Source of the DNA: a bacterium
GTDB taxonomy: Bacteria > Bacillota > Sulfobacillia > UBA995
Length of the DNA: 64,000 bases
Assembly: GCA_031082145.1 (NCBI GenBank)
Contig: JAVHLP010000001.1
Span: 444,885-508,884 of the forward strand
Direction: 5' to 3'
Position 1 is the stretch's first letter, and the number at the start of each line of letters is the position of its first letter. The notes beneath the pieces are model-generated. The model made no database searches. It was not told where the DNA came from and was given only the letters and a program-made list of their open reading frames with translations. The position numbers and the translations under genes are program-made. Positions 7,714 through 26,137 of the stretch are shown here, piece after piece.

Positions 7714-9283
7714 CACCCTCAACTCCCTCCAGGTGAGCCAGGAAGGGGTTGAAGTAACCGGGCTCGCGGGGAACGACCCCGTCCAGACCCTTACCCCCAT
7801 CGCGGGGCCGGCGTACGCCGGCGAACATGCCCTGCTCGAGCGCCTCCCACAGGCCAATCGCCCGGACTTCCCCCAGCATGCCGGCCGCCCCTTCCAGCAC
7901 CCGGACGGCCCGCTCCTGGATACGGCCGCCTGGCCGCAGTACCACTTCCCGCCCCAGGTCTCGCGCGTTGTTCATGACGTAACGGGCGTTCTCCAGGGCC
8001 AGGTAGCGATCGGCCACGAACGGGGTGTGAATGGCCTCGGTGGGCATCCCCAGCAGTTGGATGCTCTGGCCGGTCAGGACTCCCACCAGGTTGAACAGGC
8101 AGTCCTGGAGGTGGGACCGGAAGATGTTGCCCGTCTTATACTTGGTGGGCGGCATGAACTTGATCGGGCTTAGCGGGAAGAGGGCCCGGACCAGGGCCGC
8201 CTGGGCGATCTCCCAGAGCAGGCCGTCGGTCAGGTCGGGGTCCATCTGGAAAGCGTGGCCGAGCCCGATCTGCTCCCGCGCCAGGCCGGCCTGCAAGGCG
8301 AACTCCTCGTTGATGAACTGGGAAGCGATCACGGTATGGGCCGCCTCGTAGGCGTCGTCGGTGGTGAGGTAGTTGTCCTCGCCGGTATTGATTATGTGAC
8401 CGGCCCGGGCGCTAATCCGGCGGGACAGGTACTGGTCAACCAGCGTCCGCCGGGGGCTGAGGTCCCGGAACAGTATACCGTACATGGCATCGTTGAGCAT
8501 CATGTCCAGGCGTTCCATGGCCCCCAGGGCCGCGATCTCCGGCATGCACAGGCCCGACGCGTAGTTGACCTGGCGGACGTAGCGGCCAAGTTCTTCCGAC
8601 ACGGCGTCCAGGGCTTCCCGCATGATCCGGAAGTTCTCCCGGGTGGCGTAGGTCCCGGCGTAACCCTCGGTGGTGGCCCCGTGGGGCACGTAGTCCAGCA
8701 GGCTCTGTCCGGTCGACCGGATGACGGCGATCACGTCGGCTCCCATGCGGGCGGCCGACTGCGCCTGCACCACATCCTCGTGGATGTTGCCGGTGGCCAC
8801 GATAACATATAGCCAGGGCTGGGGGCTCTCACCTAGCCGGTCCACGAAGTCCTCTCGTTCCCGCCGCCGGCTGCTGATGTGGTCCATCGCCCGCCGGGCG
8901 GCCGCCCGGCCCAGTTCCCGCACTTTCACGGGATCGGCGCCGGGCAGGCGGATCAGGTCCAGGCCCTCGTCGGCCACCGCCCGGGCCACCTCGCCGGGAT
9001 CCCGGCCGGTCACCGCCACCGCGTTGAAAAGCCAGTAACTGGCGCCGTGGCCCAGTTCGCTCCCGATCTGATCCACCAGCCGGTTGGGCAGGGGAGTACC
9101 CTCGCCGTCCACGCCATTGATGCCGGCCAGTCGCAGGGCCGCCCGCTCCATGCTGGTGGTGGTGTGGTGCCGGACGTAGTCCATGATCTCATCCACTATG
9201 ACCCGGGCGTCCTCCCGGGCCGACCTCACCAATCCGGGATCCAGTTCCAGGCAACCGGGCAGGCCTCCCGGCCTTCCCGTCAT
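7706..9283 (-). CDS. kamD: Lysine 5,6-aminomutase alpha subunit
   Basis: 525 aa; IATGNIHEDVVQAQSAARMGADVIAVIRSTGQSLLDYVPHGATTEGYAGTYATRENFRIMR. Confidence 0.93.
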   Translation of the reverse strand: MTGRPGGLPGCLELDPGLVRSAREDARVIVDEIMDYVRHHTTTSMERAALRLAGINGVDGEGTPLPNRLVDQIGSELGHGASYWLFNAVAVTGRDPGEVARAVADEGLDLIRLPGADPVKVRELGRAAARRAMDHISSRRREREDFVDRLGESPQPWLYVIVATGNIHEDVVQAQSAARMGADVIAVIRSTGQSLLDYVPHGATTEGYAGTYATRENFRIMREALDAVSEELGRYVRQVNYASGLCMPEIAALGAMERLDMMLNDAMYGILFRDLSPRRTLVDQYLSRRISARAGHIINTGEDNYLTTDDAYEAAHTVIASQFINEEFALQAGLAREQIGLGHAFQMDPDLTDGLLWEIAQAALVRALFPLSPIKFMPPTKYKTGNIFRSHLQDCLFNLVGVLTGQSIQLLGMPTEAIHTPFVADRYLALENARYVMNNARDLGREVVLRPGGRIQERAVRVLEGAAGMLGEVRAIGLWEALEQGMFAGVRRPRDGGKGLDGVVPREPGYFNPFLAHLEGVEGDG

Positions 9284-10917
9284 GGCCGTTCCCCCTCTCC
9301 GGCGGTCTCCCCGAGGTAGCGTTCGGCCAGTTCCACGACGCCCTCGTCCAGGCCCAGCAGCCTGGCCACCACCAGCGCGTCACGAGGGGCTTCCTTCCCC
9401 GGCGCGACCCTCTCCAGCCGGTAATCCATGTGCTCGTACAACCAGTCGACCCCCTCGGCCCCATCCTCACCGGCCAGGACATCACCCCGGAGCCCGCGGG
9501 TCTGCCAGTGGGCCGTCCCGACCAGTTCGGCCAGGCCGGAGTGGTGGGTAGCCAGCAGGCACACGCTTGGGCCCCGCGCCAACCGCCCGAGAATCGCGGC
9601 GCAAAGAGCCCTCCCTTCCCGGGGGTTAGTGCCCCGGGCGAACTCGTCCAGGAGCAGCAGTCCCGCCTCGTCGAGACGGCCGAGGGGCTCTCGCACCCGG
9701 GTGACCTCGGCCGCGAAAGCGCTCAACCCCGGCCGGTTCTCCTCCTCCTGGCCGCCGTAGAAGATGAAAGCCACCGGGGACCACGCCATATGGCCGGCGG
9801 GGACCGGCAGGCCCAGTTGCGCCATGGCCACGGCCAGCCCCAACGTGCGCAAGGCAACCGTCTTGCCCCCCATGTTGGGACCGGTCAGCACCGCCGCCCC
9901 CGGCCGGAGTTCGAGGCTCACCGGGGTGAACCGCCGGCCCGATCGTCCGAGGTCTTGCTCCACCCCGGGGTGACGGGCCTCCCTGAGGACCACCCCCGAG
10001 CCGGGGGGGAGGATCACCGGCCGCACCGCTGCCGTCTCCCGCGCCAGGCGGGCGCGGGCCAGTAGAAAATCCAGCCGGCCCAGGGCAGCCATGTTGTGGC
10101 TGAGAGCCGGGGCCCACCGGGCAACGGCCCTCGATAGCTTTCCACGGACCCGGGCTTCCTCCCGCCGCTCCTGCTCCTTGAGGTGTGCCAGGATGGCTTC
10201 CGCTTCCCTCGCCCGGGCCCCTGGCCGCAAGCGGAAGTACAGGAAGCCGCCGGCTTCCCTCACCGGAAGGAGATCGGATTCCTCGCGGGCCAGGAGCACT
10301 CGCCGGTCCCCCGCCGGCAACACAACTTCCCCGCCCGGCCCCGGCTTCACCCCCAGCCGTCCGGCAACGGCGAAGGCTTGCTCCCTCCGCCCCTCCTCCA
10401 GGCTCCGCTCCGCGGCCCGCTTCCTCCGGCGCAGCCGGGCCAGGGAAGTTGAGAACTGGTCGCCGACGTGAAACCCGGGCGATCCCGTCCCTTGCGGGTC
10501 CAACGCGCGGAGCACCCCATCCACGGCCTCCAGCCGGAGGTCCGGCGGTAGAGGCCAGGACAGGCGGCCGAGGAGTTCCTCGATCTCCCGGCTGATCAGG
10601 GCAAAGCGTTTGAGTTCGTAGAGCTCGACAACTTCCAGGGCCGCCCCCCGGACGGCCGCGGCCACCGAACCCCGCAGGTCGCGCAGGCGCCCCAAGCGGC
10701 CTACCAGCGCCCGCATCACCGGGGGGGAGTCGTCGCCCGCCCGCCGGGCGGCTTCCACCCGACCCAGTTCTTCTTCCAGCGCGGCCTCCTCGCCGGGCAG
10801 ATAAGCCCGGGCACGGCCTTTCTCCTCCCGGCCGAAGGGGCTGGCGGGCTCGATCATGGCCCAGATCTTGTCCAGCCCCAGACCGGCAGCGGTTGAGGCC
10901 AGCAACAACTCCTTCAT
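9280..10917 (-). CDS. kamC: MutS-like ATPase, lysine 5,6-aminomutase reactivase ATPase
   Basis: Walker A GPNMGGKT, Walker B LLLLDEFARGTNP; gene order kdd-kamB-kamC-kamD-kamE. Confidence 0.85.
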   Translation of the reverse strand: MKELLLASTAAGLGLDKIWAMIEPASPFGREEKGRARAYLPGEEAALEEELGRVEAARRAGDDSPPVMRALVGRLGRLRDLRGSVAAAVRGAALEVVELYELKRFALISREIEELLGRLSWPLPPDLRLEAVDGVLRALDPQGTGSPGFHVGDQFSTSLARLRRRKRAAERSLEEGRREQAFAVAGRLGVKPGPGGEVVLPAGDRRVLLAREESDLLPVREAGGFLYFRLRPGARAREAEAILAHLKEQERREEARVRGKLSRAVARWAPALSHNMAALGRLDFLLARARLARETAAVRPVILPPGSGVVLREARHPGVEQDLGRSGRRFTPVSLELRPGAAVLTGPNMGGKTVALRTLGLAVAMAQLGLPVPAGHMAWSPVAFIFYGGQEEENRPGLSAFAAEVTRVREPLGRLDEAGLLLLDEFARGTNPREGRALCAAILGRLARGPSVCLLATHHSGLAELVGTAHWQTRGLRGDVLAGEDGAEGVDWLYEHMDYRLERVAPGKEAPRDALVVARLLGLDEGVVELAERYLGETAGEGERP

Positions 10918-11951
10918 GGGCTGAGGTTCAACGCCCGGCCAAGCACCAGGTCGAACGCCGGCAGGGGCTGCGCCACCCGGGCCACCTCCCTGACGAGTTC
11001 TTCCGGGTCCAGGGTGAGCCCGTCTGGTCCCACCGGGTTCAGGGTGACCGCGACGACCCGGATAGGGTGCAGCACGGCCACTTTTCCCCCCGCCCGGCCG
11101 AAGCGGGCCCAAGCCCGGCTACCTACGAAGACGTGAGTCCCGTCGGGAACAATCACCTTCAGGCGTCCAGGTCCCCTGCTCATGCCGGCCAGGGCCTCCA
11201 CCACCCCGTCGACAAGGGCGCCGGCGATCACCAGGGCCTTGACTCCCTCTTCCACCGCCCCGGCAATGACCCCCCCGCTCCCCAGGGCAGTTCTGAGGTT
11301 GAGGCCGAACGGACGGTAGTCCTCGTCCACCGCCGCCACCCTCCACTTGTGGATGGCCCGGACCGCGGCCTCCCGCAGCCGCTGGTCCGCCACGCCGGGC
11401 AGGCCGAGAAAGGTGAGCAGGAGCCGGGTCCGTTCGGCCACCTCCCCTACGCCACCCCCAACCGCCGCCCCGGTGGCCACCACCGTCCCCTCGGTCACCA
11501 GGGGGGCGGCCGAAGCCACCCGGTCCACCGAACCGTCCACCAGGACCAGGGCTGCCCCGTGGGCCCGCAGGCGAGTCACCGCCAACCCCAGACCGGCCGC
11601 CGTCGGCGGCCCCGCCAGGCCCAACCTCCCCGGCTCCCGTACCCGGGCTACCACCAGGTGGCCCAGAGGGCCGGCAGCCGGCAGCACTTCCAGGACCTCG
11701 ACGTGGGCCTCACCCTGACGCAGGGAGGCCTCTGCCGTCGCCACCAGGCTGCCCCGGGGGGCGTATACCTCCGGCCGGTCGTCCGGCGCCCCTTCCCGGC
11801 CCCCCGCGAGCAGCCCCAGCGGCACTCCCTCTTCCTGGGCCCGGAGCACCAGGTGGTCCACGACCAGGGTCTTACCCACACCCTTGGCGGTGCCCACCAC
11901 GGCGAGGCTGGCCAGCCGGCTGGCCCTTACCAGACTGAAGAGGTCACCCAT
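10914..11951 (-). CDS. kamB: Lysine 5,6-aminomutase reactivase subunit (P-loop protein)
   Basis: P-loop GTAKGVGKT near the N-terminus; located between kdd and kamC with 4-nt overlap. Confidence 0.8.
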   Translation of the reverse strand: MGDLFSLVRASRLASLAVVGTAKGVGKTLVVDHLVLRAQEEGVPLGLLAGGREGAPDDRPEVYAPRGSLVATAEASLRQGEAHVEVLEVLPAAGPLGHLVVARVREPGRLGLAGPPTAAGLGLAVTRLRAHGAALVLVDGSVDRVASAAPLVTEGTVVATGAAVGGGVGEVAERTRLLLTFLGLPGVADQRLREAAVRAIHKWRVAAVDEDYRPFGLNLRTALGSGGVIAGAVEEGVKALVIAGALVDGVVEALAGMSRGPGRLKVIVPDGTHVFVGSRAWARFGRAGGKVAVLHPIRVVAVTLNPVGPDGLTLDPEELVREVARVAQPLPAFDLVLGRALNLSP

Positions 11952-11952
11952 G

Positions 11953-13005
11953 CTATACGAACCAACTCTCGAAGATCTCCTTCAACCGCGAGTTCTCCCG
12001 CAGGCAAGCCAGGGCGATTAGGTCGTGGCCGCGGGCATAGCCGTTGCCGATGATCATGTTGACGTCCCGGCCGATCCCCTCCGCCCCCAGGGCCGCGGCC
12101 GTGAAGCTGGTAGCCATGCTGAAGAAGTAGACCGTCCCACCCTCGCGGGTGCACAAGACCGACGTCATCTCCGTCCCGGGCACGTTCACGCAGTTGATGG
12201 TGACGTCGGCCGCCTCGCCCCCGGAAACCGCGTGGAAAGCGGCCAGGGCCTCCAGCGGGCGGTCGGCGCCGGCAGCGAAGACGGCGTCGCTGATACCCAG
12301 GGACGCGGCCCGTTCCACTGAGGCCGGGCTGTGCGCCATGGCGTAGAGCCTGCCGGTGACGCCGGCCCGCTTCCTTGCCTCGTGCAGGCATAACAGTCCT
12401 GATTTGCCGCCGGCGCCGATGACCAGTACGCTGTCCCCCGGCCGGACCAGGCGGGCGGTCTGGGCGGGGGCCCCGGCGACGTCCAGTACGGCCAGGGCCA
12501 GCGTCTCGGGCAGATCGGTGGGGATGGGAGCGTAGATGCCGGAAGCGAAGAGCACCGCCCGGCCATCAACCTCGACCTGATCCCGGTCCAGGTTCACCTG
12601 CCGGATCCGCTCAAGCTTCAGGGGAGTGAGGGACAGGGAGACCAACGTGGCGATCCGGATCCCCGGCTGCAGGCTGCCCGCCGCGGGATGTTCAGGCCCG
12701 ACCCGCTCCACGGTCCCCAGCAGCATGCCGCCGGACCCGGTGACCGGGTTGTGGAGCTTGCCTCGCCGGGCCACGATGTCGAGGATGGCGGCTGCCATGT
12801 TGTCCTCAACGCTCCCGCCCTTCTCCTCGGCCGCCTTCTCGAGCTGGGTGAAGCTGGCGGCGTCGACGTTCAGGGTGTCCACCCGGATGAGCAGCTCGTT
12901 GGGGGCGATGTCGGGGCAGTTGTCGATCCGCCAGGCCGGCTGGGGCAGCGACCCCGCCGGTTCAAGGCTGCGGTGACTGCCATAGGGGCAAGGTCTTCTG
13001 GTCAC
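11953..13005 (-). CDS. kdd: L-erythro-3,5-diaminohexanoate dehydrogenase
   Basis: PCPYGSHRSLEPAGSLPQPAWRIDN, NELLIRVDTLNVDAASFTQ, GMLLGTVERVGPEHP; GTG start with GGAGG RBS. Confidence 0.9.
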   Translation of the reverse strand: MTRRPCPYGSHRSLEPAGSLPQPAWRIDNCPDIAPNELLIRVDTLNVDAASFTQLEKAAEEKGGSVEDNMAAAILDIVARRGKLHNPVTGSGGMLLGTVERVGPEHPAAGSLQPGIRIATLVSLSLTPLKLERIRQVNLDRDQVEVDGRAVLFASGIYAPIPTDLPETLALAVLDVAGAPAQTARLVRPGDSVLVIGAGGKSGLLCLHEARKRAGVTGRLYAMAHSPASVERAASLGISDAVFAAGADRPLEALAAFHAVSGGEAADVTINCVNVPGTEMTSVLCTREGGTVYFFSMATSFTAAALGAEGIGRDVNMIIGNGYARGHDLIALACLRENSRLKEIFESWFV

Positions 13006-13249
13006 GTTCAACCTCCTCGGTCCCGGGGACCGGGAAAATGGTCTCTCTGCTCCCTGTAGGTTGTCCCATGCAAGAACGGTGCCCCGCAGCGGAACCAGCA
13101 AGGCGAGGAGTCCGGCGAGAGCAGTGCCGGGAATTGGGCAGGGGAGGCCGGCGGTACCCGGGTGCTGCCGGTACCTGAGCGTGAAGACGGCCGACGGTGT
13201 ATGCCGCTTGCGGAACGTCAGGGGCAAGGCCGGTTCTCGGCCGCCCCCG

Positions 13250-13549
13250 TCACGGCTGCCTCTCAGGCTCTCCTTCCCTCAACCTCTCCCACAGCGCCCG
13301 GATGATGACCATGGAAGCGGTGTCGGGGTGCATTCCGGCCCCTCCGCACGAGTTCAGCAGCTCGATGTTGCCCTGCCACAGGCCGAAGCTGTTCCGGACG
13401 AACATCCCCAGGCCGAAGTGGAACAGATCCAGATCCCATTCATCACTGACATCCCGAACAGCCTGCTTACCCTGATCGGACAGGAGGGTCAGGAGGCGCT
13501 CGACGGCGGCGTGAACTGTCCTCGGCCATTGCCCTTCCTGGCTATCCAT
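13250..13549 (-). CDS. Small uncharacterised protein (DUF6794-like)
   Basis: 99 aa FHFGLGMFVRNSFGLWQGNIELLNSCGGAGMHPDTASMVIIRALWERLR. Confidence 0.6.
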   Translation of the reverse strand: MDSQEGQWPRTVHAAVERLLTLLSDQGKQAVRDVSDEWDLDLFHFGLGMFVRNSFGLWQGNIELLNSCGGAGMHPDTASMVIIRALWERLREGEPERQP

Positions 13550-13733
13550 GGCAGGTTGCCAGCCCTTTCGCCACCGACCTGCATCTGCTGCGCGTGGACC
13601 TTGGCGTCGCCCGATGATCGCGGCCAGCAGTCCTGGTGGAGTCCCGCTGAACCCGGGGTTCTCCCGCGTATCGTCTGAGAACGCGATTCGCCAAATTCCG
13701 CCATCTTCCCTCCCCCCGGTGAGATGAGGAAGC

Positions 13734-13919
13734 TCAGAGCGATCCGGCTAGGGTCTCCAGGATCAGCGGGGAGTGGAGCAGCAGCAGGGCGGCGAGGAGG
13801 CGCGTCGTGCTGGTGCGGCCGTGGCTTGTGGTAACGAGACCCTGGAGCCGGGCCCGCTGTTCGTAATGGACTGGCCCCAGGGGACCGAGCCCCGGCACGC
13901 TCCCCCTCCTCTCGTCCAC
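13734..13919 (-). CDS. Possible 61-aa ORF downstream of the YwlG-family gene
   Basis: GTG start 2 nt after the upstream 48-codon ORF; hydrophobic C-terminus LLAALLLLHSPLILETLAGSL; no recognised homology. Confidence 0.2.
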   Translation of the reverse strand: MDERRGSVPGLGPLGPVHYEQRARLQGLVTTSHGRTSTTRLLAALLLLHSPLILETLAGSL

Positions 13920-13921
13920 CG

Positions 13922-14068
13922 CTAACCGAGGTGCCGCCTGACCATCACCATCTGGCCGCAGTGATCGGGCGTGGGAAAGGCGATCAGGGCCAGCAACCAG
14001 CGCAGGGTGAGATCCGGGTCCAGTGAGCCGCCCCTGACCGATGCCAGGGCCGACCTGAGCGCGGTCAC
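13922..14068 (-). CDS. Possible 48-aa ORF translationally coupled to the YwlG-family gene
   Basis: GTGA start/stop overlap; VTALRSALASVRGGSLDPDLTLRWLLALIAFPTPDHCGQMVMVRRHLG. Confidence 0.3.
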   Translation of the reverse strand: MTALRSALASVRGGSLDPDLTLRWLLALIAFPTPDHCGQMVMVRRHLG

Positions 14069-14625
14069 TTGCCCGGGTCCGGCTCGTAGTGGGCCCGCTC
14101 GCCACCGACGAGCTTGGGGCGGGTACGGGCCATGGTCAAGTGGGCGGCGCCGATGGCCTTGAGCTGGGGGCGCACCGGCACCGCCACCCGCTTCAGGTGC
14201 ATACCAATGAGGGTGTCGCCGATGTCCAGGCCGGCGTGGGCGGCGACGCTCTCCACCACGACCGGGTCCGCCAGGCGCTCCATGGCCACCACCGACAGGG
14301 CGCCGCCGGCCTTCAGGTGGGGAACCACGCCCACTATCTCCAGGCCGTACTTCTCGGCGCAGGCCCGTTCGGTGACCAGGGCCCGGTTCAGGTGCTCGCA
14401 GCACTGCACCGCCAGGTATAGCCGGTTAGCTTGGACTTCCGGTTCCAGTGCCCGGTACACGGCTTCGGCCACCTCGCGGTTGGAGGCGGTACCGATCTTG
14501 TGTCCCAGCACCTCGGAGGTGCTGCAACCCACGATCAGGATCTGGCCCGGCCGGAGTCCGGCGACTCCGGTAAGCTGGCGAACGGCGGCTTGGACTTGAC
14601 TGGTCAGTTGCTCGAGATCGACCAT
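14065..14625 (-). CDS. YwlG / TIGR01440 (UPF0340) family protein
   Basis: QILIVGCSTSEVLGHKIGTASN, QCCEHLNRALV, DIGDTLIGMHLKRVAVPVRP. Confidence 0.85.
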   Translation of the reverse strand: MVDLEQLTSQVQAAVRQLTGVAGLRPGQILIVGCSTSEVLGHKIGTASNREVAEAVYRALEPEVQANRLYLAVQCCEHLNRALVTERACAEKYGLEIVGVVPHLKAGGALSVVAMERLADPVVVESVAAHAGLDIGDTLIGMHLKRVAVPVRPQLKAIGAAHLTMARTRPKLVGGERAHYEPDPGK

Positions 14626-14647: not shown

Positions 14648-15781
14648 TCAGGTATACGACGCTACCTTGCACGCTACCTCCTGCCGGTATCCCGTGATGA
14701 CCCTGACGTAGCCGCTCAGGTCGCCGTTCAGGTCGCTGGCCCCGGTATCCACCAGCAGGGGGTTGCCTCCCAGGGCCACCAGCTTGCCCATGGTGGCGAC
14801 CACGATGATGCTGTCCACGCCCGCCTTCCGGATCACCCGCGGGCTGATCTGCTGGTTTCCCCGGCCGAAGATGAACCCCTGGCCGCCGATAGGGGTGACG
14901 ACAATCCTGGCCGGCCCGCTCTCCAGGAGCGAGAGTAACACGCTCTCGGTAGTATCGCCGGCAACCAGGCGGCCGCCCTGGGCTACGTCGACCCCCAGGA
15001 GGGTCTTGGGCAGCCCCAGGCGCTCCAGGATGGCCCGGGTGGTCGTGCCCGGCCCCACCACGTACAGGCGACCGTCCTCCATCCGGTCGATGACCTCCGA
15101 GGCGATCCCGTCCAGGGCCGACTCCTCCCCGCCACGGCTCCCGGCCTTGAGTGACTGGACCATCCCCGCCTCGTGAGGCACCTTGAGGTAGCCATAAAGC
15201 CGGGCCGAGACCCGGCCGGCCCGGAAGGCCTCCTCGTCGATATCCATGACCTCCGCTTCCCGTACCCGGGTCACCTTGCCCTCCAGGAAGAGAGCGGCCA
15301 GGTCGCCTGCGCTCCGGGGGGTGGTGGCGCATACCGCCGAGTGGATCTTCACCCCGGCGGGAACGCCCACCGCCACCAGGCCGGCCCCCACGGCAGTGCA
15401 GATGTCGCGGGCGGTGCCGTCACCCCCGGCGAACAGGAGCAGATCCACTCCCCGGTCCATCAGGTCGCCGGCCGCCCGCCGCGTGTCCTCGCCGGTGGTG
15501 CGGCCGGGCTCAATCAAACCGATCACGGTGGGTACAAAACCCGCCCGGCGGGCCTCGTTCTCACCCATGTCGTGGGGATAGGTGACCAGGTTGAAGGTGT
15601 CCTTCAGGCGCAGCAGCCGGCCCAGGGCCTCAACCGCCCGCCCGGGAGCCTCGGGGACGGCCCCCAGTTCCCGAGCCTGCTCCAGGATGGCGGGGCCATC
15701 GGTCCCCTTGAGGCCGACCCTTCCCCCCATTCCGGCCACCGGGTTCACGATCAGGCCCAGCTTCTTCAACTGGCCGCCCAC
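14648..15781 (-). CDS. ATP-NAD kinase-like (AcoX-related) family protein
   Basis: LGLIVNPVAGMGGRVGLKGTDG, LLLFAGGDGTARDI, TPIGGQGFIFGRGNQQISPRVI. Confidence 0.8.
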   Translation of the reverse strand: MGGQLKKLGLIVNPVAGMGGRVGLKGTDGPAILEQARELGAVPEAPGRAVEALGRLLRLKDTFNLVTYPHDMGENEARRAGFVPTVIGLIEPGRTTGEDTRRAAGDLMDRGVDLLLFAGGDGTARDICTAVGAGLVAVGVPAGVKIHSAVCATTPRSAGDLAALFLEGKVTRVREAEVMDIDEEAFRAGRVSARLYGYLKVPHEAGMVQSLKAGSRGGEESALDGIASEVIDRMEDGRLYVVGPGTTTRAILERLGLPKTLLGVDVAQGGRLVAGDTTESVLLSLLESGPARIVVTPIGGQGFIFGRGNQQISPRVIRKAGVDSIIVVATMGKLVALGGNPLLVDTGASDLNGDLSGYVRVITGYRQEVACKVASYT

Positions 15782-15824: not shown

Positions 15825-17375
15825 CTACCGCTTCTTTCTCTTCTTGAGGTAGGCCCGCCAGGTCATCGCCCAGCGCTCGGGATCGTCGAGGGCACTCTCG
15901 TCAATCCGGCTTATGGTGCTGCGGTGGGGAGCCGTCAGCACAATCTCCGGGTTGGTGTAGGCTTCCTCGGCGATGTGCCGGAGAACCTCAACGTACTCAT
16001 CGATGTCGTCCTTGGAGTAGGACTCGCACGGTTCCAGGGTGAAGGGCTCGGGGACCACGAAGGGATGATGGCTCTCGAAGTAGCTTTGCAGGCCGAAGTC
16101 CACCATGCGGCGCCGCACGTCGTGCGTGCCCACCCCCGTCGCCTGCCGGAGTGGTTCCCAGCTGTAGCGGATCTGATCCAGCCGGTGGCTGGCCCGGGGA
16201 TAGGGGATGGCCACGCCCGGGATCGCCGCCATCTTCCTGGCCATGTAGTTGTTGTTGAGCACCGAGATATCGGTCGCCATCCGCAGGCCCTCCGGCCCCA
16301 TGCTCATGGACCAGGCGTAGGAGCGCAGGACCACCGGGATATTGCCCAGGAAACCCCGGACCCGGCCTATACTGTCCGGCCGGTCATAGGCCAGGCGGTA
16401 CCGCTTGCCGTCGTATTCCACCACCGGAACGGGAAGGAACCGCGCCAGTTCGGCGGTGACGCCCACCGCGCCGGAGGCCGGTCCCGCGCAACCGTGGGGG
16501 GACGAGAAGGTCTTATGGAGATTGAAGTGGCACATGTCGAAGCCTGCCTCGCGGGCCCGGGCCACCCCCAGGATGCCATTGGCGTTGGCCTGGTCGTAAG
16601 AGCAGAGCCCGCCGGCGTCGTGGACTCGGTCCACGTACTCCCGGATGCGCGGGTTGAAGATGCCGGTGTCCTCGGGGTTGGTGATCATCATGCCCGCGGT
16701 CCGTTCCGACACCACCGCCTTCAGGGCTTCGAGGTCGGGGTAGCCGTTCTCGTCGGGCATCAGGGTGATCACCTTGAAGCCGGCCGTAGCCGGGCAGGCG
16801 GCATCGGCAGGGTGTGAGAAGATGGTGGTGATGATCTCGTTTCGTTGCTTGTCACCGCGTGATTCATGGTGGGCCCGGATCAAGCAGGCATTGGTGTAGA
16901 TGCCCTGGGCGCCGCCGCCGGGCTGGAAGGTGAAGCGGTCCAGGCCCGAGATCTCCTTGAGGATCCGCTCGAAGCGGTACATGATCTCCAGGATGCCCTG
17001 CACCGTGTCGTCGTCCTGGTAGGGGTGCAGTTCGGTCATCTCGGGCAGGGCGGCCATCTGCTCGTTAACCTTCGGACTGTACTTCATGGTGCAGGTGCCC
17101 TGGCTGATATCCAGGTTCAGGTCGGTCCCCAGGCACATCTGTGACAGCCTGAGGTAATGGCGAAGCACGTGGGGCTGGGCCAATTCGGGCAGCCGGGGCA
17201 CGTCCTTCCGCCGCACCTCGGCCGGGATGGAAGCCAGGACGTCGCCGGCCACCCGCTCGATCTCCTCGCCGGCCTCCGGGACCAGCACGCCCCGCTCCCC
17301 GGGACTGCCCAGTTCCAGGATGATTGGCTCCTGCCAGGCGACCGCCTGGTAGCGTTCCTTCAGGCGCCTCTTCAT
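15825..17375 (-). CDS. gcvPB: Glycine dehydrogenase (decarboxylating) subunit 2-like PLP protein, divergent
   Basis: NLHKTF catalytic-lysine motif, DRPDSIGRVRGFLGNIPVVLRSYAW; the glycine-rich loop after SPHG reads GCAGPA rather than GGGGPG. Confidence 0.8.
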   Translation of the reverse strand: MKRRLKERYQAVAWQEPIILELGSPGERGVLVPEAGEEIERVAGDVLASIPAEVRRKDVPRLPELAQPHVLRHYLRLSQMCLGTDLNLDISQGTCTMKYSPKVNEQMAALPEMTELHPYQDDDTVQGILEIMYRFERILKEISGLDRFTFQPGGGAQGIYTNACLIRAHHESRGDKQRNEIITTIFSHPADAACPATAGFKVITLMPDENGYPDLEALKAVVSERTAGMMITNPEDTGIFNPRIREYVDRVHDAGGLCSYDQANANGILGVARAREAGFDMCHFNLHKTFSSPHGCAGPASGAVGVTAELARFLPVPVVEYDGKRYRLAYDRPDSIGRVRGFLGNIPVVLRSYAWSMSMGPEGLRMATDISVLNNNYMARKMAAIPGVAIPYPRASHRLDQIRYSWEPLRQATGVGTHDVRRRMVDFGLQSYFESHHPFVVPEPFTLEPCESYSKDDIDEYVEVLRHIAEEAYTNPEIVLTAPHRSTISRIDESALDDPERWAMTWRAYLKKRKKR

Positions 17376-18760
17376 CGGAGAACCTCCTTCACGGCGTCAA
17401 CCAGCCTCTCGATGGCTTCCCGGCTGTGAATCTCGGTCACGCAGTAGAGCGCGCTGTTCCCCAACTCGGGGTAAGAAGCACTGAGATCGATGCCGCCGAA
17501 GATCCGGTGCCCGAGCAGTGCCCGATTGACGTCCGCCACGGGCCGGTCAAAGGTGACCACAAACTCCTTGAAGTGGGTTGTGGGGTAAACCGGAGTGGTG
17601 ACGCCGTTGAGTTCTCCGAGCCGCTTCATGGCGTAGTACGAACGTTGCATGATGGTCTTGCCCAGGTCGGCCATCCCCTGCGGCCCCATCAGGGCCAGGT
17701 ACACCCCGGCGGTGATCCCCCAAAGGGCCGTATTGCTGCCGGTGTAGTCTGGCGAAGTGTCGCGCTTGACAAAGGAAGTGCGGTCGAAGGTGGACCAGCC
17801 GAAGCCGAACTCGCCGCCCTCGCGGGTCTCGGCGATGCTGGTGAGGAAGGTGTTGTACTCGGCGACGAAAGTCTCGTCGTCGCGGCTGGCTATGAATCCG
17901 CAGACGCCGCCGCCGTAGTTCATGTGGATCCCCAGTGGCTGGGCCTCGCCACACACGATGTCGGCGCCGTAAGCGATGGGGGGGGATATTACCCCCAGCG
18001 AGGTGGGGTCGACACCGACCACCAGGAGCGCGCCAAAGGCGTGCGCCATTTCGGCCACAGTGGCCCCCCGGTGCTCGATAAGCCCCAGGTAGGTGGGGTT
18101 CTCCAGGTAGACGCAGGCCGTCCGTGAGGACAGCTTGCGGCGGAGGTCATCCAGGTCGAGCAGGCCGGTGACGGGATCGGTCGCCACGGTCTCCACGTTC
18201 ACCACCGGCCGGCAGAAGTTGCGCACGTGGGCAAGCCGCTCGGGTCCGGTGCCCGCCGGCACCAACACCTGCTTGCGGCCGGTGATGCGGGCGGCCATGA
18301 GGAGGGCGCTGCTGGCCGCGCACGCCCAGTCGTAGGTGGGGCTGGACACCACGTCCATCTCCAGGAGTTCGCCCAGCAGGCTCTGGAACTCGAAGATGGC
18401 CTGATGCTTCCCGAGGTCGGAGTAGGTGTCCCCAACGTAGGCGGTGACGAACTCGCCCCGGGAAGCGATCTCGTCGCAGACCGCCGGGACGTAGTGCTGC
18501 CAGCAACCACCGCCCTTGAAGTTCAGGTACTCCTGGCAGGACCGGTTCTTGCGGAGCAGCCCCTCCACGTGCTGGCGGAGTTCGTACTCGGAGAGCAGCG
18601 GGCCCGGAACGTCGAGGGGGCGCTTCAACCGCAGTGCTTCGGGAATGCCGGTGTACAGGTCCTCGATGTCGCCGGCGCCGATCTCCCGCAGCAACTGGTC
18701 CCGGATGGCCGGGACCGAGTTGGGGATGTAGGGATGGACAAGATCCTTGTCACGGGGCAC
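17372..18760 (-). CDS. gcvPA: Glycine dehydrogenase (decarboxylating) subunit 1-like protein, divergent
   Basis: HPYIPNSVPAIRDQLL, GGGCWQHYVPAV, TYDWACAASSALLMAARITGR, YLALMGPQGM; GTG start at 18760 after GGAGGGA RBS; 4-nt overlap with gcvPB-like. Confidence 0.78.
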   Translation of the reverse strand: MPRDKDLVHPYIPNSVPAIRDQLLREIGAGDIEDLYTGIPEALRLKRPLDVPGPLLSEYELRQHVEGLLRKNRSCQEYLNFKGGGCWQHYVPAVCDEIASRGEFVTAYVGDTYSDLGKHQAIFEFQSLLGELLEMDVVSSPTYDWACAASSALLMAARITGRKQVLVPAGTGPERLAHVRNFCRPVVNVETVATDPVTGLLDLDDLRRKLSSRTACVYLENPTYLGLIEHRGATVAEMAHAFGALLVVGVDPTSLGVISPPIAYGADIVCGEAQPLGIHMNYGGGVCGFIASRDDETFVAEYNTFLTSIAETREGGEFGFGWSTFDRTSFVKRDTSPDYTGSNTALWGITAGVYLALMGPQGMADLGKTIMQRSYYAMKRLGELNGVTTPVYPTTHFKEFVVTFDRPVADVNRALLGHRIFGGIDLSASYPELGNSALYCVTEIHSREAIERLVDAVKEVLR

Positions 18761-18840: not shown

Positions 18841-20349
18841 TTAGCGGCCGGCAGCAGCCAGCTTGTGCTGCCGATGGTAGTTCTCGACTTCCTGGAACAG
18901 TTCCTCGGTGCGCTTGTCAACCGGCAGGGCGTACCCGCAGCCGATGTAGATGATGGTGTTTACGACCAGGCCCCAGACGCCGGGCGTCCAACCGCCGAAG
19001 GAGATGCCCTCCGGGTGGAGGTAGGTCAGGTAGAAGGCGACCGCCAAGCCGGCGATCATCCCGGCCACGGCGCCCACGGCGTTGCCGCGCTTCCAGTACA
19101 TGCCCAGTAGCTGACCCGGGCCCAGCTGGATGATGAACTGGTAGGTCAGCAGGGCGACGAAGATGAGCATGGGCAGTTCCATGTTGGCGATGAAGAACGC
19201 CAGCACCGACACCCCGAACACGACGTACTGGGCCAGGCGGGTCGCCTGCCTGCTATCCAGCTTCGAGTTGAGTGGCTTCAGCACGTCCTCGGCGATGGAA
19301 GCGCCGAAGAAGTGAATCAGGCTGGCGGTCGTGGACAGCACCGCCGACATCGCCACCAGGAGAGCGAGGGTGAGGAACACCGGGCCGCCCAGATTGTCCG
19401 AGAGCCAGAGCCAGACCATCTGCGGGTTCTCCCGGGCGTAGCCCAGGCTGTGGGCGCTAAGCCCGAAGAACAGGAAGAACACACAGATGAGGGTCCCGAT
19501 GGTGATCGCCTGCCAGGTGGCTCGCTTGGCCGTCCGCACCGAGTCGGAGGCGAATACCCGGTTCATGGCCCACGGCCACAGGAAGCCGCCCACCGAGCTG
19601 GTGATGATGATCGAGGCCCACCACTGCGGCGGGGGATTCCAGCCGGGGCCGGGGTAGGTGAGGATCTCGGGGAAGTTGGCCACCGCGTTCCGGATCGTCG
19701 CGGCAAAGCCCCCGGTGTTCATGTAAATCAGGATGTAGGTGAACACCGTTGCGCCCAGGGCGAAGAGCAGCCCCTGGACGAAGTGCGCGGTGATGACCGC
19801 CCGCATGCCGCCCAGGGCAACGTACACGGCGATGATGGCCGCGCCAATCAGCATCGCCCACAGGAACGGCAGGTAACCATAGGTCCCGTGGCTCAACAGG
19901 TAGCCGATGGTCCAGAACTCCATGATCAGCCAGGGGAACGAGGCGATGACGCCGACGACACCCGCCAGGGCCTTGATCTTGTTGCTGTTGTAGCGAAGGC
20001 CCCAAAGGGCTCCCTGGGTGTTGAGCTGGTGAGTCGCCCCCCAGATCCACATCTTGTCCAGGATCAGGTAGAGGAGAATCAAGCAAAAGGCGCCGTAGAC
20101 TGGCGTGTACGTATAAACGAAGCCGAAGTTGACCGCCATCCCCATCCAGGCGGTGTACGACGCGCCGACGTACCAGGTCGCCATCATGCTGAAAGTGATG
20201 GCCCAGACCCCGAAGGCCCGGTTGGCCGTTGCGAACTCGTTGAACTCCTGAACACCGTATGACCGGCGGTTCATCCACAGTAGGACGGCCATGTAGCCGA
20301 GCACTACCAGGGTCGGAATGATGGCCAGCCCCAGCGATACCTCCCTCAC
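18841..20349 (-). CDS. Sodium:solute symporter (SSS family)
   Basis: 502 aa multi-TM; FATANRAFGVWAITFSMMATWYVGASYTAWMG, SAVLSTTASLIHFFGASIAEDV. Confidence 0.88.
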   Translation of the reverse strand: MREVSLGLAIIPTLVVLGYMAVLLWMNRRSYGVQEFNEFATANRAFGVWAITFSMMATWYVGASYTAWMGMAVNFGFVYTYTPVYGAFCLILLYLILDKMWIWGATHQLNTQGALWGLRYNSNKIKALAGVVGVIASFPWLIMEFWTIGYLLSHGTYGYLPFLWAMLIGAAIIAVYVALGGMRAVITAHFVQGLLFALGATVFTYILIYMNTGGFAATIRNAVANFPEILTYPGPGWNPPPQWWASIIITSSVGGFLWPWAMNRVFASDSVRTAKRATWQAITIGTLICVFFLFFGLSAHSLGYARENPQMVWLWLSDNLGGPVFLTLALLVAMSAVLSTTASLIHFFGASIAEDVLKPLNSKLDSRQATRLAQYVVFGVSVLAFFIANMELPMLIFVALLTYQFIIQLGPGQLLGMYWKRGNAVGAVAGMIAGLAVAFYLTYLHPEGISFGGWTPGVWGLVVNTIIYIGCGYALPVDKRTEELFQEVENYHRQHKLAAAGR

Positions 20350-23208: not shown

Positions 23209-24867
23209 TTATGAATCTTCGGCCCTTTGTTTGGTCTCCGCAGCCAAAGAGGAGGCCAGCCACAGCCGCGTTGCCAGGTGAAGGTTGAAACGGTCCTGGG
23301 GCGAGCCCAAATCCATCGCTGTCATCTTCTCCACCTGGGACAGGCGGTAGCGGACGGTGTTGTGGTGCACGTGCAAGATCTTGGCGGCCTCCCGGTAGCT
23401 CGCGCCGTGGTCGAGGAAAGCAGCCAGGGTACGGGTCAGGTCAGCCGGCTGCTCACGGTCATACTTGAGGATCGGACCGATGGTATCGCGGATGAAGCCC
23501 GCCACCTCGGGATCGGTTGGGTCGGCGACCAGCCGGTAGAGGCCCAGGTCCCTGAAGAGGACCACGGGACCGGCGCCGGGGATCACGGGGGCCAGCTCCA
23601 CCGCCATAGCCGCCTCACGATAGCTGTCCTTGACAGCGAGGACGCCCATCCTCGGCCGGCCGACACCGGCGGTGAGGTGGAGACCTTGATGCCGACGGCC
23701 CAGATCCTCGATGATGCCGGCCACCCGGGCGGCGACCTGCAGATCGGCCCGCTCCCGCACCCCTGCCTCACCGGTGGGAATCAGGGCAATGGGCCGTTCC
23801 TGGTAGCCCACTTCGGTTATGCTGTGGCGGGGCAAGCCCCCACCCGCCAGGAGATCGAGCACCCGCCAGCCCACGCGGTAGTCCCGAGCGTCAGCCCAGG
23901 TTGAAGGCAGCCGGTCAACCCGGAAGACCACCGCCGCGTAAGAGGGAGCGGGTTCCCACCCCAGAGCCCTCGCCGAAGCAGCGACCGAAACCTCGGACTC
24001 AAAGTCGCCGGCCAGCAGGTGGTGTACGAAGTCATCCTTGACCGAACGCTCCATATGGCTGACGGCGCGTACTTTCTGGACGTCAAGAGCCACGGCCACA
24101 GCCGCCTGCTCGATGGCCACCAGGTCCTCGGTGGTCAGGTCGCCGTTCCTGTCCTGCACGATGACCCAGCCGTCAACGCTGCGGTCGTTCCCCACCCGGC
24201 AGACGACACGGCACGAACAGGCCCGGGGAGACTTGATGCGCGCCAGGGCCGGGCGCTCGGGCAAGGGAGTAGCAGTTTCGTCGCTTCCAGGTTGCCAGGG
24301 ACGGGGAAGCTCGGGGAAATCCACGGACGCACGGGTTCCGGTGAAGCCGTTCACGATCACTAGCGGCCGGTTGACCAGCCCCGCCAGTTCCCTGGCCAGG
24401 ATCTCAATGCTCCCCTGCTCCAGGGCAAGGCTGATGAAGTGGCGCTGGATCGTCCAGGAGCGCTCCAGCTCCCTCGTCTTCCGGCCCAGGAGTTCCTTGA
24501 GGGCCGAGTTGATGACATCCACCCAGGCCAGGGCATATGGCACCTGCACGACGGGGAAGGCCAGCTCGTTGGCGGCGTGGATGACCTCTGGCTCCAGGCT
24601 GTCCACGAACCGCTGCAGCTTCACCCCCAGCCCCGCCGCCTCGCGTTCGTTGAGTTCGCGGATCAGGGCAATCTGTTCGCCGGCATTGCGATAGTGGAAG
24701 AGCGTCGTGAACATGAACTCGCCACCCCGGATATACCGGATTCCGTCCGGAGCGTCAAGAATGGTGACCCCCCGGACATCCCGGTCCAGGCCGGCGTCGC
24801 CGGCCAGCACGTTGCTGGCCGCGAGTTCCGGCAGCTCGAGAACGTCCCGCACCTTCAAGCGAATCAC
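23209..24867 (-). CDS. PucR family transcriptional regulator
   Basis: N-terminal PucR domain, C-terminal HTH LAAFLDHGASYREAAKILHVHHNTVRYRLSQVEKM. Confidence 0.88.
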   Translation of the reverse strand: MIRLKVRDVLELPELAASNVLAGDAGLDRDVRGVTILDAPDGIRYIRGGEFMFTTLFHYRNAGEQIALIRELNEREAAGLGVKLQRFVDSLEPEVIHAANELAFPVVQVPYALAWVDVINSALKELLGRKTRELERSWTIQRHFISLALEQGSIEILARELAGLVNRPLVIVNGFTGTRASVDFPELPRPWQPGSDETATPLPERPALARIKSPRACSCRVVCRVGNDRSVDGWVIVQDRNGDLTTEDLVAIEQAAVAVALDVQKVRAVSHMERSVKDDFVHHLLAGDFESEVSVAASARALGWEPAPSYAAVVFRVDRLPSTWADARDYRVGWRVLDLLAGGGLPRHSITEVGYQERPIALIPTGEAGVRERADLQVAARVAGIIEDLGRRHQGLHLTAGVGRPRMGVLAVKDSYREAAMAVELAPVIPGAGPVVLFRDLGLYRLVADPTDPEVAGFIRDTIGPILKYDREQPADLTRTLAAFLDHGASYREAAKILHVHHNTVRYRLSQVEKMTAMDLGSPQDRFNLHLATRLWLASSLAAETKQRAEDS

Positions 24868-24962: not shown

Positions 24963-25048
24963 TCAAGAACCTGCCGGCCGGGGAATACAGGGGAACCCGC
25001 GCCAAGAGCGAAGACCACAAGCAACAGGTGGCAGGGAGGTTCGGCGCC

Positions 25049-26137
25049 ATGCTCAGAGTCGCCGCCCCGGAATACCCGATTGACACGCCCGCCCTGATCG
25101 TGGACGCCGGGATCCTGCTGGCCAACATCAGGCGGATGGCGGGCTTCTTCGCCGGCCGCCCGGCCAAGCTCCGCCCCCACTTCAAGACCCACAAGACGCC
25201 GGCCATAGCCCACCTGCAGTTGCAGCACGGGGCCATTGGCATCACCTGCGCCAAACTGGGTGAAGCCGAGGTACTCGTCCACGCGGGAATCCGCGACGTC
25301 CTGATCGCCAACCAGGTAACTGCGCCGGCTAAGGTCGCCCGCTTGGCCGGCCTGGCCCATATCGCCCACCTGAAAGTGTGTGTCGACGACGAGGAGAATC
25401 TGCTGGCTCTCTCCCGGGCGGCGGTGGCCGCCGGCAGCCGTATCGGCGTTCTGGTCGAAGTCGACGTGGGCATGGGGCGCTCGGGAACCCGATCCGCCCC
25501 GGCCACGCTGAGACTGGCCGCCCGGGCCGCCTCACTGCCGGGGATCGACTTCCAGGGCGTCATGGGCTACGAGGGACATGCCGTATTCCGGGCGTCCCGG
25601 GAAGACCGGGAAGCCGCCTGCCGGGCGGCCAACGCCTGCCTGCTCGACCACGCGGCGGCGGTGCGCCAGGAAGACATCCCCTGTCCCCTAGTCAGCGCCG
25701 GAGGCACCGGCACCTACGACATCTCCGGCGACTGTCCGGGCATTACCGAGGTCGAGGCGGGCAGCTACGTCTTTATGGACGCCACCTACCGTAAGATCGT
25801 GCCCGAGTTCGCCACCGCCCTGACCGCGTTGGCCACCGTGATCAGCCGGCCAGAACCCTCGCGGGCGGTCATCGACCTGGGCATGAAAGCCGTGACCGGG
25901 GAGTTCGGGCTGCCCCAGCCGGAGGGGCTGCCTGGAGCGACCACCCTCGCCCTTTCGGAGGAGCACGGAGTGCTGGAGCTGGAGGGACCGGCCAGGGACC
26001 TCCGGGTAGGTGATCAGGTGGTACTGCTCCCCACCCACTGCTGTACTACCGTGAACCTGCACGACCGCCTCCACGTGAGCCGGGGCGGACGGGTGCAGGA
26101 CGTCTGGACCATCGCCGCCCGGGGAGCCTTCTGCTGA
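25049..26137 (+). CDS. DSD1 family PLP-dependent enzyme (D-threonine aldolase / D-3-hydroxyaspartate aldolase-like)
   Basis: DTPALIVD, LRPHFKTHKTPAIA, EVDVGMGRSG, C-terminal PTHCCTTVNLHD metal-binding motif; ATG at 25049 (track starts at GTG 25028). Confidence 0.85.
   Translation: MLRVAAPEYPIDTPALIVDAGILLANIRRMAGFFAGRPAKLRPHFKTHKTPAIAHLQLQHGAIGITCAKLGEAEVLVHAGIRDVLIANQVTAPAKVARLAGLAHIAHLKVCVDDEENLLALSRAAVAAGSRIGVLVEVDVGMGRSGTRSAPATLRLAARAASLPGIDFQGVMGYEGHAVFRASREDREAACRAANACLLDHAAAVRQEDIPCPLVSAGGTGTYDISGDCPGITEVEAGSYVFMDATYRKIVPEFATALTALATVISRPEPSRAVIDLGMKAVTGEFGLPQPEGLPGATTLALSEEHGVLELEGPARDLRVGDQVVLLPTHCCTTVNLHDRLHVSRGGRVQDVWTIAARGAFC

Follow-up and report, generated by a model that had tools for sequence, protein, structure and literature searches.

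The window, a 64 kb stretch of DNA, carries two overlapping P-protein-like genes on its minus strand, denoted here PA2 (GcvPA-like) and PB2 (GcvPB-like); the family formed by this pair and its relatives is referred to as P2, and the kinase-like gene downstream as K. The features of the locus are as follows.

14065..14625, minus strand: DUF436/TIGR01440 (YwlG-like) gene, probable last gene of the operon; also adjoins P2-K elsewhere
14648..15781, minus strand: K, presumably COG3199-type (ATP-NAD kinase-like, GGDGT motif); Pfam NAD_kinase and NAD_kinase_C
15825..17375, minus strand: PB2, GcvPB-like PLP-binding subunit, 516 aa
17372..18811, minus strand: PA2, GcvPA-like subunit, 479 aa from TTG; PF02347/NF001696 match
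18841..20349, minus strand: sodium:solute symporter (SSF), heading the likely operon; same type upstream of P2 in L041
20652..21803, minus strand: M20 ArgE/DapE-type deacylase, possibly functionally linked; M20 gene beside P2 in L041, L048, L060, L062 and L063
21943..23130, minus strand: M20 amidohydrolase, possibly linked; not conserved next to P2 elsewhere
23209..24867, minus strand: gene for a PucR-type regulator that may control the locus; L037/L049 have a similar gene near P2

The reading frames of the pair overlap by 4 nt, and PA2 is likely to start at the GTG at 18760, 17 codons after the TTG, which fits the end given in the first-pass annotation. That annotation had read the genes as P-protein subunits, and both indeed align over their full length with the Thermus thermophilus P-protein (HMMER; PB2 with 1WYT-B, E = 4e-87; PA2 with 1WYT-A, E = 9e-65), PB2 retaining the Schiff-base Lys288 together with Asp261, His188 and His294. 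The motifs it quoted (NLHKTF, GCAGPA, YDWACAASSALL, HMNYGGGVCGFIASRDD and TSFVKRDTSPDYTGSN) are all present in the pair, and the differences it described from canonical subunits are visible in the same alignments. AF2 models of the pair, of low to moderate confidence (pLDDT 64-67), confirm the P-protein fold only. As both subunits exceed the NCBIfam cut-offs for GcvPA and GcvPB, automatic annotation will name the pair a glycine cleavage P-protein. An assembly artefact or a pseudogene was rejected as the source of the pair, because the reading frames are intact and the residues invariant across phyla.

No match to GcvT, GcvH, Lpd or LplA was found by tblastn within the window, in agreement with the earlier observation that gcvT, gcvH and lpd are missing from these 64 kb, and no SDR gene lies beside the pair at this locus. 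Downstream of the DUF436 gene, on the same strand, are lysine-fermentation genes (9280-13227: kdd, for 3,5-diaminohexanoate dehydrogenase, a kamB reactivase gene and a MutS-like gene). A gene resembling 3-hydroxy-D-aspartate aldolase (BhcC) or D-threonine aldolase, which scores below the NCBIfam cut-off, is found on the plus strand at 25028-26137.

Two loci in the source genome match PF02347, the window pair and a canonical copy. The latter belongs to a complete gcvT-gcvH-gcvPA-gcvPB operon with lplA and lpd, where tblastn detects all four of the proteins missing from the window, and which is the only site of GcvT and GcvH found in the genome; it lies downstream of a tandem glycine riboswitch (L005, 10040-10217; G000:C11, about 220 kb). 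The genome search proposed at first pass has thus revealed a second, canonical P-protein, to whose operon gcvT and gcvH belong. PA2 is 36% identical to the GcvPA of this operon, and PB2 41% identical to its GcvPB. Simple loss of gcvT and gcvH from the source genome was rejected, both being present in the canonical operon, as was a recent duplication within this genome, the P2 clade spanning domains.

P2 among the P-proteins

Among 41 genomes searched, five others carry a copy that is 61-67% identical to PB2, while the canonical copy in each is about 42% identical. A wider family scan, using one genome per species, confirmed at least 575 P-protein relatives; the best 80, which were examined, match PB2 over its full length at 58-73% identity and come from Bacillota, Chloroflexota, Acidobacteria, Aminicenantes, Desulfobacterota, Bathy-, Brock- and Asgard archaea and Thermoplasmata. 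The ratio of the scores of PB sequences against the window and Thermus proteins is bimodal, with a gap from 0.96 to 2.04 and no intermediates. In a tree of 100 PB sequences, a single branch of length 1.17 (SH-aLRT 99) separates all sampled P2 members from the canonical part of the tree, where canonical copies from the same genomes are placed; the first-pass annotation had proposed a phylogeny as a check. This tree was built by a quick method and its root is unsure owing to long outgroup branches, although the split between P2 and canonical sequences is independent of the root. The higher identity within P2 (58-73%) than to canonical copies (about 42%), the bimodal score ratio and the single-branch split make it very likely that P2 is a family separate from the canonical P-protein.

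The family is widespread and apparently undescribed, with databases labelling its members as ordinary P-protein. A literature search, covering few subscription papers, returned no description of P2, of H-independent P-protein homologues or of a P2/K/SDR cluster. Clostridium ultunense (G047) has three P2 pairs (L121, L122 and L069) besides its canonical set.

Conserved and replaced residues

All 84 P2 sequences share Lys266, Asp239, His166, His265 and His272 (numbered as in Thermus by counting along the alignment). In 41 PB and 25 PA columns, a residue with a conservation of at least 90% among 54-55 canonical sequences is replaced in the relatives of the window pair (72-84 sequences); as these class-specific changes extend across the relatives, the divergence is family-wide rather than the drift of a single sequence. 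In PB, HGTNPA becomes HPxxAA, GAHGE becomes GxQ(A/G)(I/V), with Glu136 replaced by Ile or Val, TNPNT becomes TNPED (Asn213-Thr214 to Glu-Asp) and DGAN becomes DQAN (Gly240 to Gln). The second glycine of the GGGGPG loop (Gly274) is Cys or Ser, Val378 is Arg, and Tyr405-Phe406 are His-His. In PA, only the first Tyr of the YTPYQ element survives, and RTSFxx stands in place of REQHIRR..K. None of the P-protein motifs HGTNPA, GAHGE, DGAN, GGGGPG and YTPYQ is therefore intact in P2. New invariant polar residues appear in the PB subunit of P2 at Arg403, His436, His437, Glu235-Asp236 and Gln262.

The strong divergence from the canonical copy might suggest a degenerating duplicate, or a structural or regulatory homologue without catalysis. 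This is highly implausible, however, as the operon is kept in both archaea and bacteria, the catalytic Lys, Asp and His are present in 84/84 sequences and the new residues are equally invariant across phyla, a pattern that implies purifying selection.

For human GLDC, Tyr161 and Tyr164 are given as active-site residues, and contact with H-protein is predicted for Arg373 and Lys376 (PMC7259800). Arg373, Lys376 and Tyr164 map to elements that are rebuilt in PA2. The Arg373 position is variable in P2, with the flanking Glu/Gln replaced by Thr/Ser, and the window pair reads Lys/Thr, so that the predicted H-protein interface is not retained. Together with the replacements in both subunits, this mapping suggests that P2 has been rebuilt, and then held constant, on both its substrate side and its predicted carrier side. 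The rebuilt pocket would suit a larger substrate no less well than glycine.

Gene neighbourhoods and genomic partners of P2

Clustering the reading frames of 85 loci revealed a conserved block of PB2 (85 loci), PA2 (78), K (68) and one or two SDRs (50), with K directly downstream of PB2 in most loci. In a survey of 200 genomes of the phylum, P2 and K are each found in 12, and 11 have both (Fisher, 3.7e-16), with gene coordinates placing the two side by side. K is hence a near-obligate partner of P2. The window copy, of 373 aa, has both NAD kinase domains and the GGDGT motif, and is taken to belong to the COG3199/AcoX-type ATP-NAD kinase-like proteins; no convincing relative of solved structure was found for it in the PDB, nor any NCBIfam family of its own. 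K without P2 is seen in G036/G011 (L154, L155) and as an orphan in G200 (L172), where its neighbours are uninformative. DUF436, for which the papers found give no substrate, adjoins P2-K in L089, L170, L173, L174 and L180 as well as in the window.

A link to glycine is evident from riboswitches. Glycine riboswitches regulate the metabolism and transport of glycine (PMC5666159). Such elements (RF00504) lie directly upstream of PA2, on the same strand and at a distance of about 100-420 nt, in L173, L174, L051 and L176, the first two having two tandem pairs each, and the copies so linked bear P2 signatures. By a simple placement estimate, the chance of this arrangement is about 2e-6, or about 8e-5 if the related L174 is left out. 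A model derived from these aptamers found no further riboswitch upstream of PA2 in 97 loci (1.25 Mb), and no glycine riboswitch was found in the window. As a riboswitch directly precedes P2 in only four of about 97 loci and is missing from the window, glycine control could be a feature of particular lineages.

The genes following K in some loci are also relevant. A glycine/sarcosine-type reductase (Grd) operon comes right after K in L119 and L051/L156, and in L119 and L051 another riboswitch separates the two. The assignment to Grd rests on Pfam matches for the component B genes and thioredoxin system, and on reading of the reading frames for components A and C; the best NCBIfam match of component B in L051 is sarcosine GrdG, at 645 bits, below the cut-off of 780. 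In L119, a SECIS element (13783-13820) follows the component-B selenoprotein-type gene of this operon. L173 and L174 have lipoylation and canonical gcv genes upstream of P2, and an amino acid permease, DUF436, PdxS and SerA downstream, plus SerC in L174 and GcvH in L173. Downstream of the P2 operon, T-box leaders (L173, 3389-3605; L174, 2351-2561) precede the genes for serine biosynthesis (SerA, SerC). P2 is thereby tied to glycine, both by riboswitches and by neighbouring genes for glycine/sarcosine-type reductase or for serine and glycine cleavage system functions.

A Pfam scan of 117 pooled neighbours found transporters, M20 proteins and regulators, and pointed to no single pathway. The linked transporter is of the SSF type in the window and of APC, ABC or TRAP type in other loci. 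MTTB-type methyltransferase genes are found near P2 in L098, L116 and L177. In the last of these, a corrinoid protein gene and a dimethylamine methyltransferase gene directly follow P2-K, the latter (11998-14051) with a PYLIS_2 match where the frame seems to be interrupted by a stop, which is likely to be a pyrrolysine codon. One of the C. ultunense pairs is followed by a hydantoinase-like and an N-carbamoylase-type gene, and another, L122, by genes for succinyl-CoA:acetate CoA-transferase and methylmalonyl-CoA mutase.

Several of these features would suit an alternative in which the substrate of P2, as a PLP decarboxylase or C-C lyase, is an amino acid other than glycine, for example a beta-hydroxy or dicarboxylic one. 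SDRs would then oxidise or reduce the beta-hydroxyl group or the product, K would phosphorylate an intermediate, and glycine control would reflect glycine as a product or a shared nitrogen economy. The SDRs in about 60% of loci, the nearby amino acid transporters and M20 deacylases, the downstream genes in L122 and the D-threonine-aldolase/BhcC-like gene near P2 in both the window and L040 are consistent with this, and the new invariant polar residues suggest an added acidic or polar group on the substrate. No neighbour consistently names one other substrate, however, and the riboswitches directly upstream in four loci argue for glycine-linked chemistry over that of an unrelated amino acid. 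This alternative is regarded as less likely than a glycine-linked reaction, though not by much.

The presence of other glycine cleavage components in P2-bearing genomes bears on whether the pair is simply a second P-protein isozyme, with the canonical operon supplying its GcvH, GcvT and Lpd. GcvH is present in most of the 57 such genomes examined. The complete chromosome of a Heimdallarchaeota (G045, L113) has GcvT and GcvH, and its only P-protein is of the P2 type. In L169, L173 and L174, P2 lies beside gcv or lipoylation genes, with the GcvH gene ending the P2 gene string in L173, and such neighbours could indicate use of lipoyl-H-protein in some lineages. These observations, along with the NCBIfam scores of both subunits, favour an isozyme. 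Against this, four genomes whose sole GDC-P is of the P2 type, all of them drafts or MAGs, have no GcvT: Paradesulfitobacterium ferrireducens (an isolate draft, L046) and a Bacillota MAG (L105), both without a GcvH match, and a Clostridiaceae MAG (L088) and an archaeal MAG (L065), where the GcvH match is only below cut-off or weak and interrupted by a stop. Furthermore, elements of the predicted H-protein interface and many motif residues are replaced family-wide, the source genome already has a complete canonical set, and K is not a component of the glycine cleavage system. An isozyme therefore seems improbable.

The role of P2 and its relation to known systems

The separate clade, the class-specific residues, the four genomes without GcvT or any clear GcvH, and the partnership with K lead to the conclusion that P2 is no ordinary P-protein of the glycine cleavage system; its role probably lies in another amino acid pathway, one with a link to glycine. 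The first-pass annotation had suggested both that the pair might not be a glycine cleavage P-protein and that it could act on another amino acid: the former part is upheld by the position outside the canonical clade and the four genomes, and the latter is weakened by the riboswitches in L173, L174, L051 and L176. Its further suggestion of another carrier may hold, or the enzyme may use none. The preferred reading is that P2 is a putative glycine-linked, H-independent decarboxylase, to which a probability of roughly 0.45 is attached. The most likely substrate is predicted to be glycine or a close relative, such as sarcosine or a serine-type amino acid, with a different amino acid almost as likely.

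On this view P2, an alpha-beta PLP enzyme, would act alongside K and SDRs in a glycine-linked module of amino acid catabolism. The amino acid, set free in some genomes by an M20 deacylase, would enter through the linked transporter and form an external aldimine with the PLP bound to Lys288. The alpha carboxylate would depart as in P-protein, and the carbanion would be protonated or handed to an acceptor other than lipoyl-H-protein, as the rebuilding of the glycine-rich loop and, in the alpha subunit, of TPYQ and REQHIRR..K suggests. The product would then be processed by K and the SDRs. More tentatively, P2-K(-SDR) may constitute an undescribed route, independent of lipoyl-H-protein, that degrades glycine or a glycine derivative in Bacillota, Chloroflexota, Aminicenantes, Desulfobacterota, Bathyarchaeota and Asgard archaea.

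The window alone gives little idea of how large the family is. Because its members are automatically named GcvPA/GcvPB, genome reconstructions inferring glycine cleavage or the reductive glycine pathway may be wrong, including those of uncultured archaea. If the reaction is new, it would add a pathway to anaerobic amino acid catabolism and suggest a possible function for two orphan families, the COG3199-type kinase-like proteins and DUF436. As P. ferrireducens is a cultured isolate in which P2 was found and GcvH and GcvT were not, the question is directly testable.

The closest known system is the two-subunit glycine decarboxylase of T. thermophilus (1WYT/1WYU), which resembles P2 in its architecture, fold family, PLP-Lys/Asp/His framework and PA-PB gene order. 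P2 differs in forming a separate clade with replaced motifs, in its partner K and, in the window, in having no T, H or L neighbours. K shares the NAD kinase domains and GGDGT motif of COG3199/AcoX-type proteins, but differs in being a conserved partner of P2 without a close solved relative. Grd operons are likewise a glycine-riboswitch-controlled system of amino acid catabolism, and directly follow P2-K in L119 and L051/L156; P2, however, does not belong to the Grd components, and Grd genes are absent from most of its loci.
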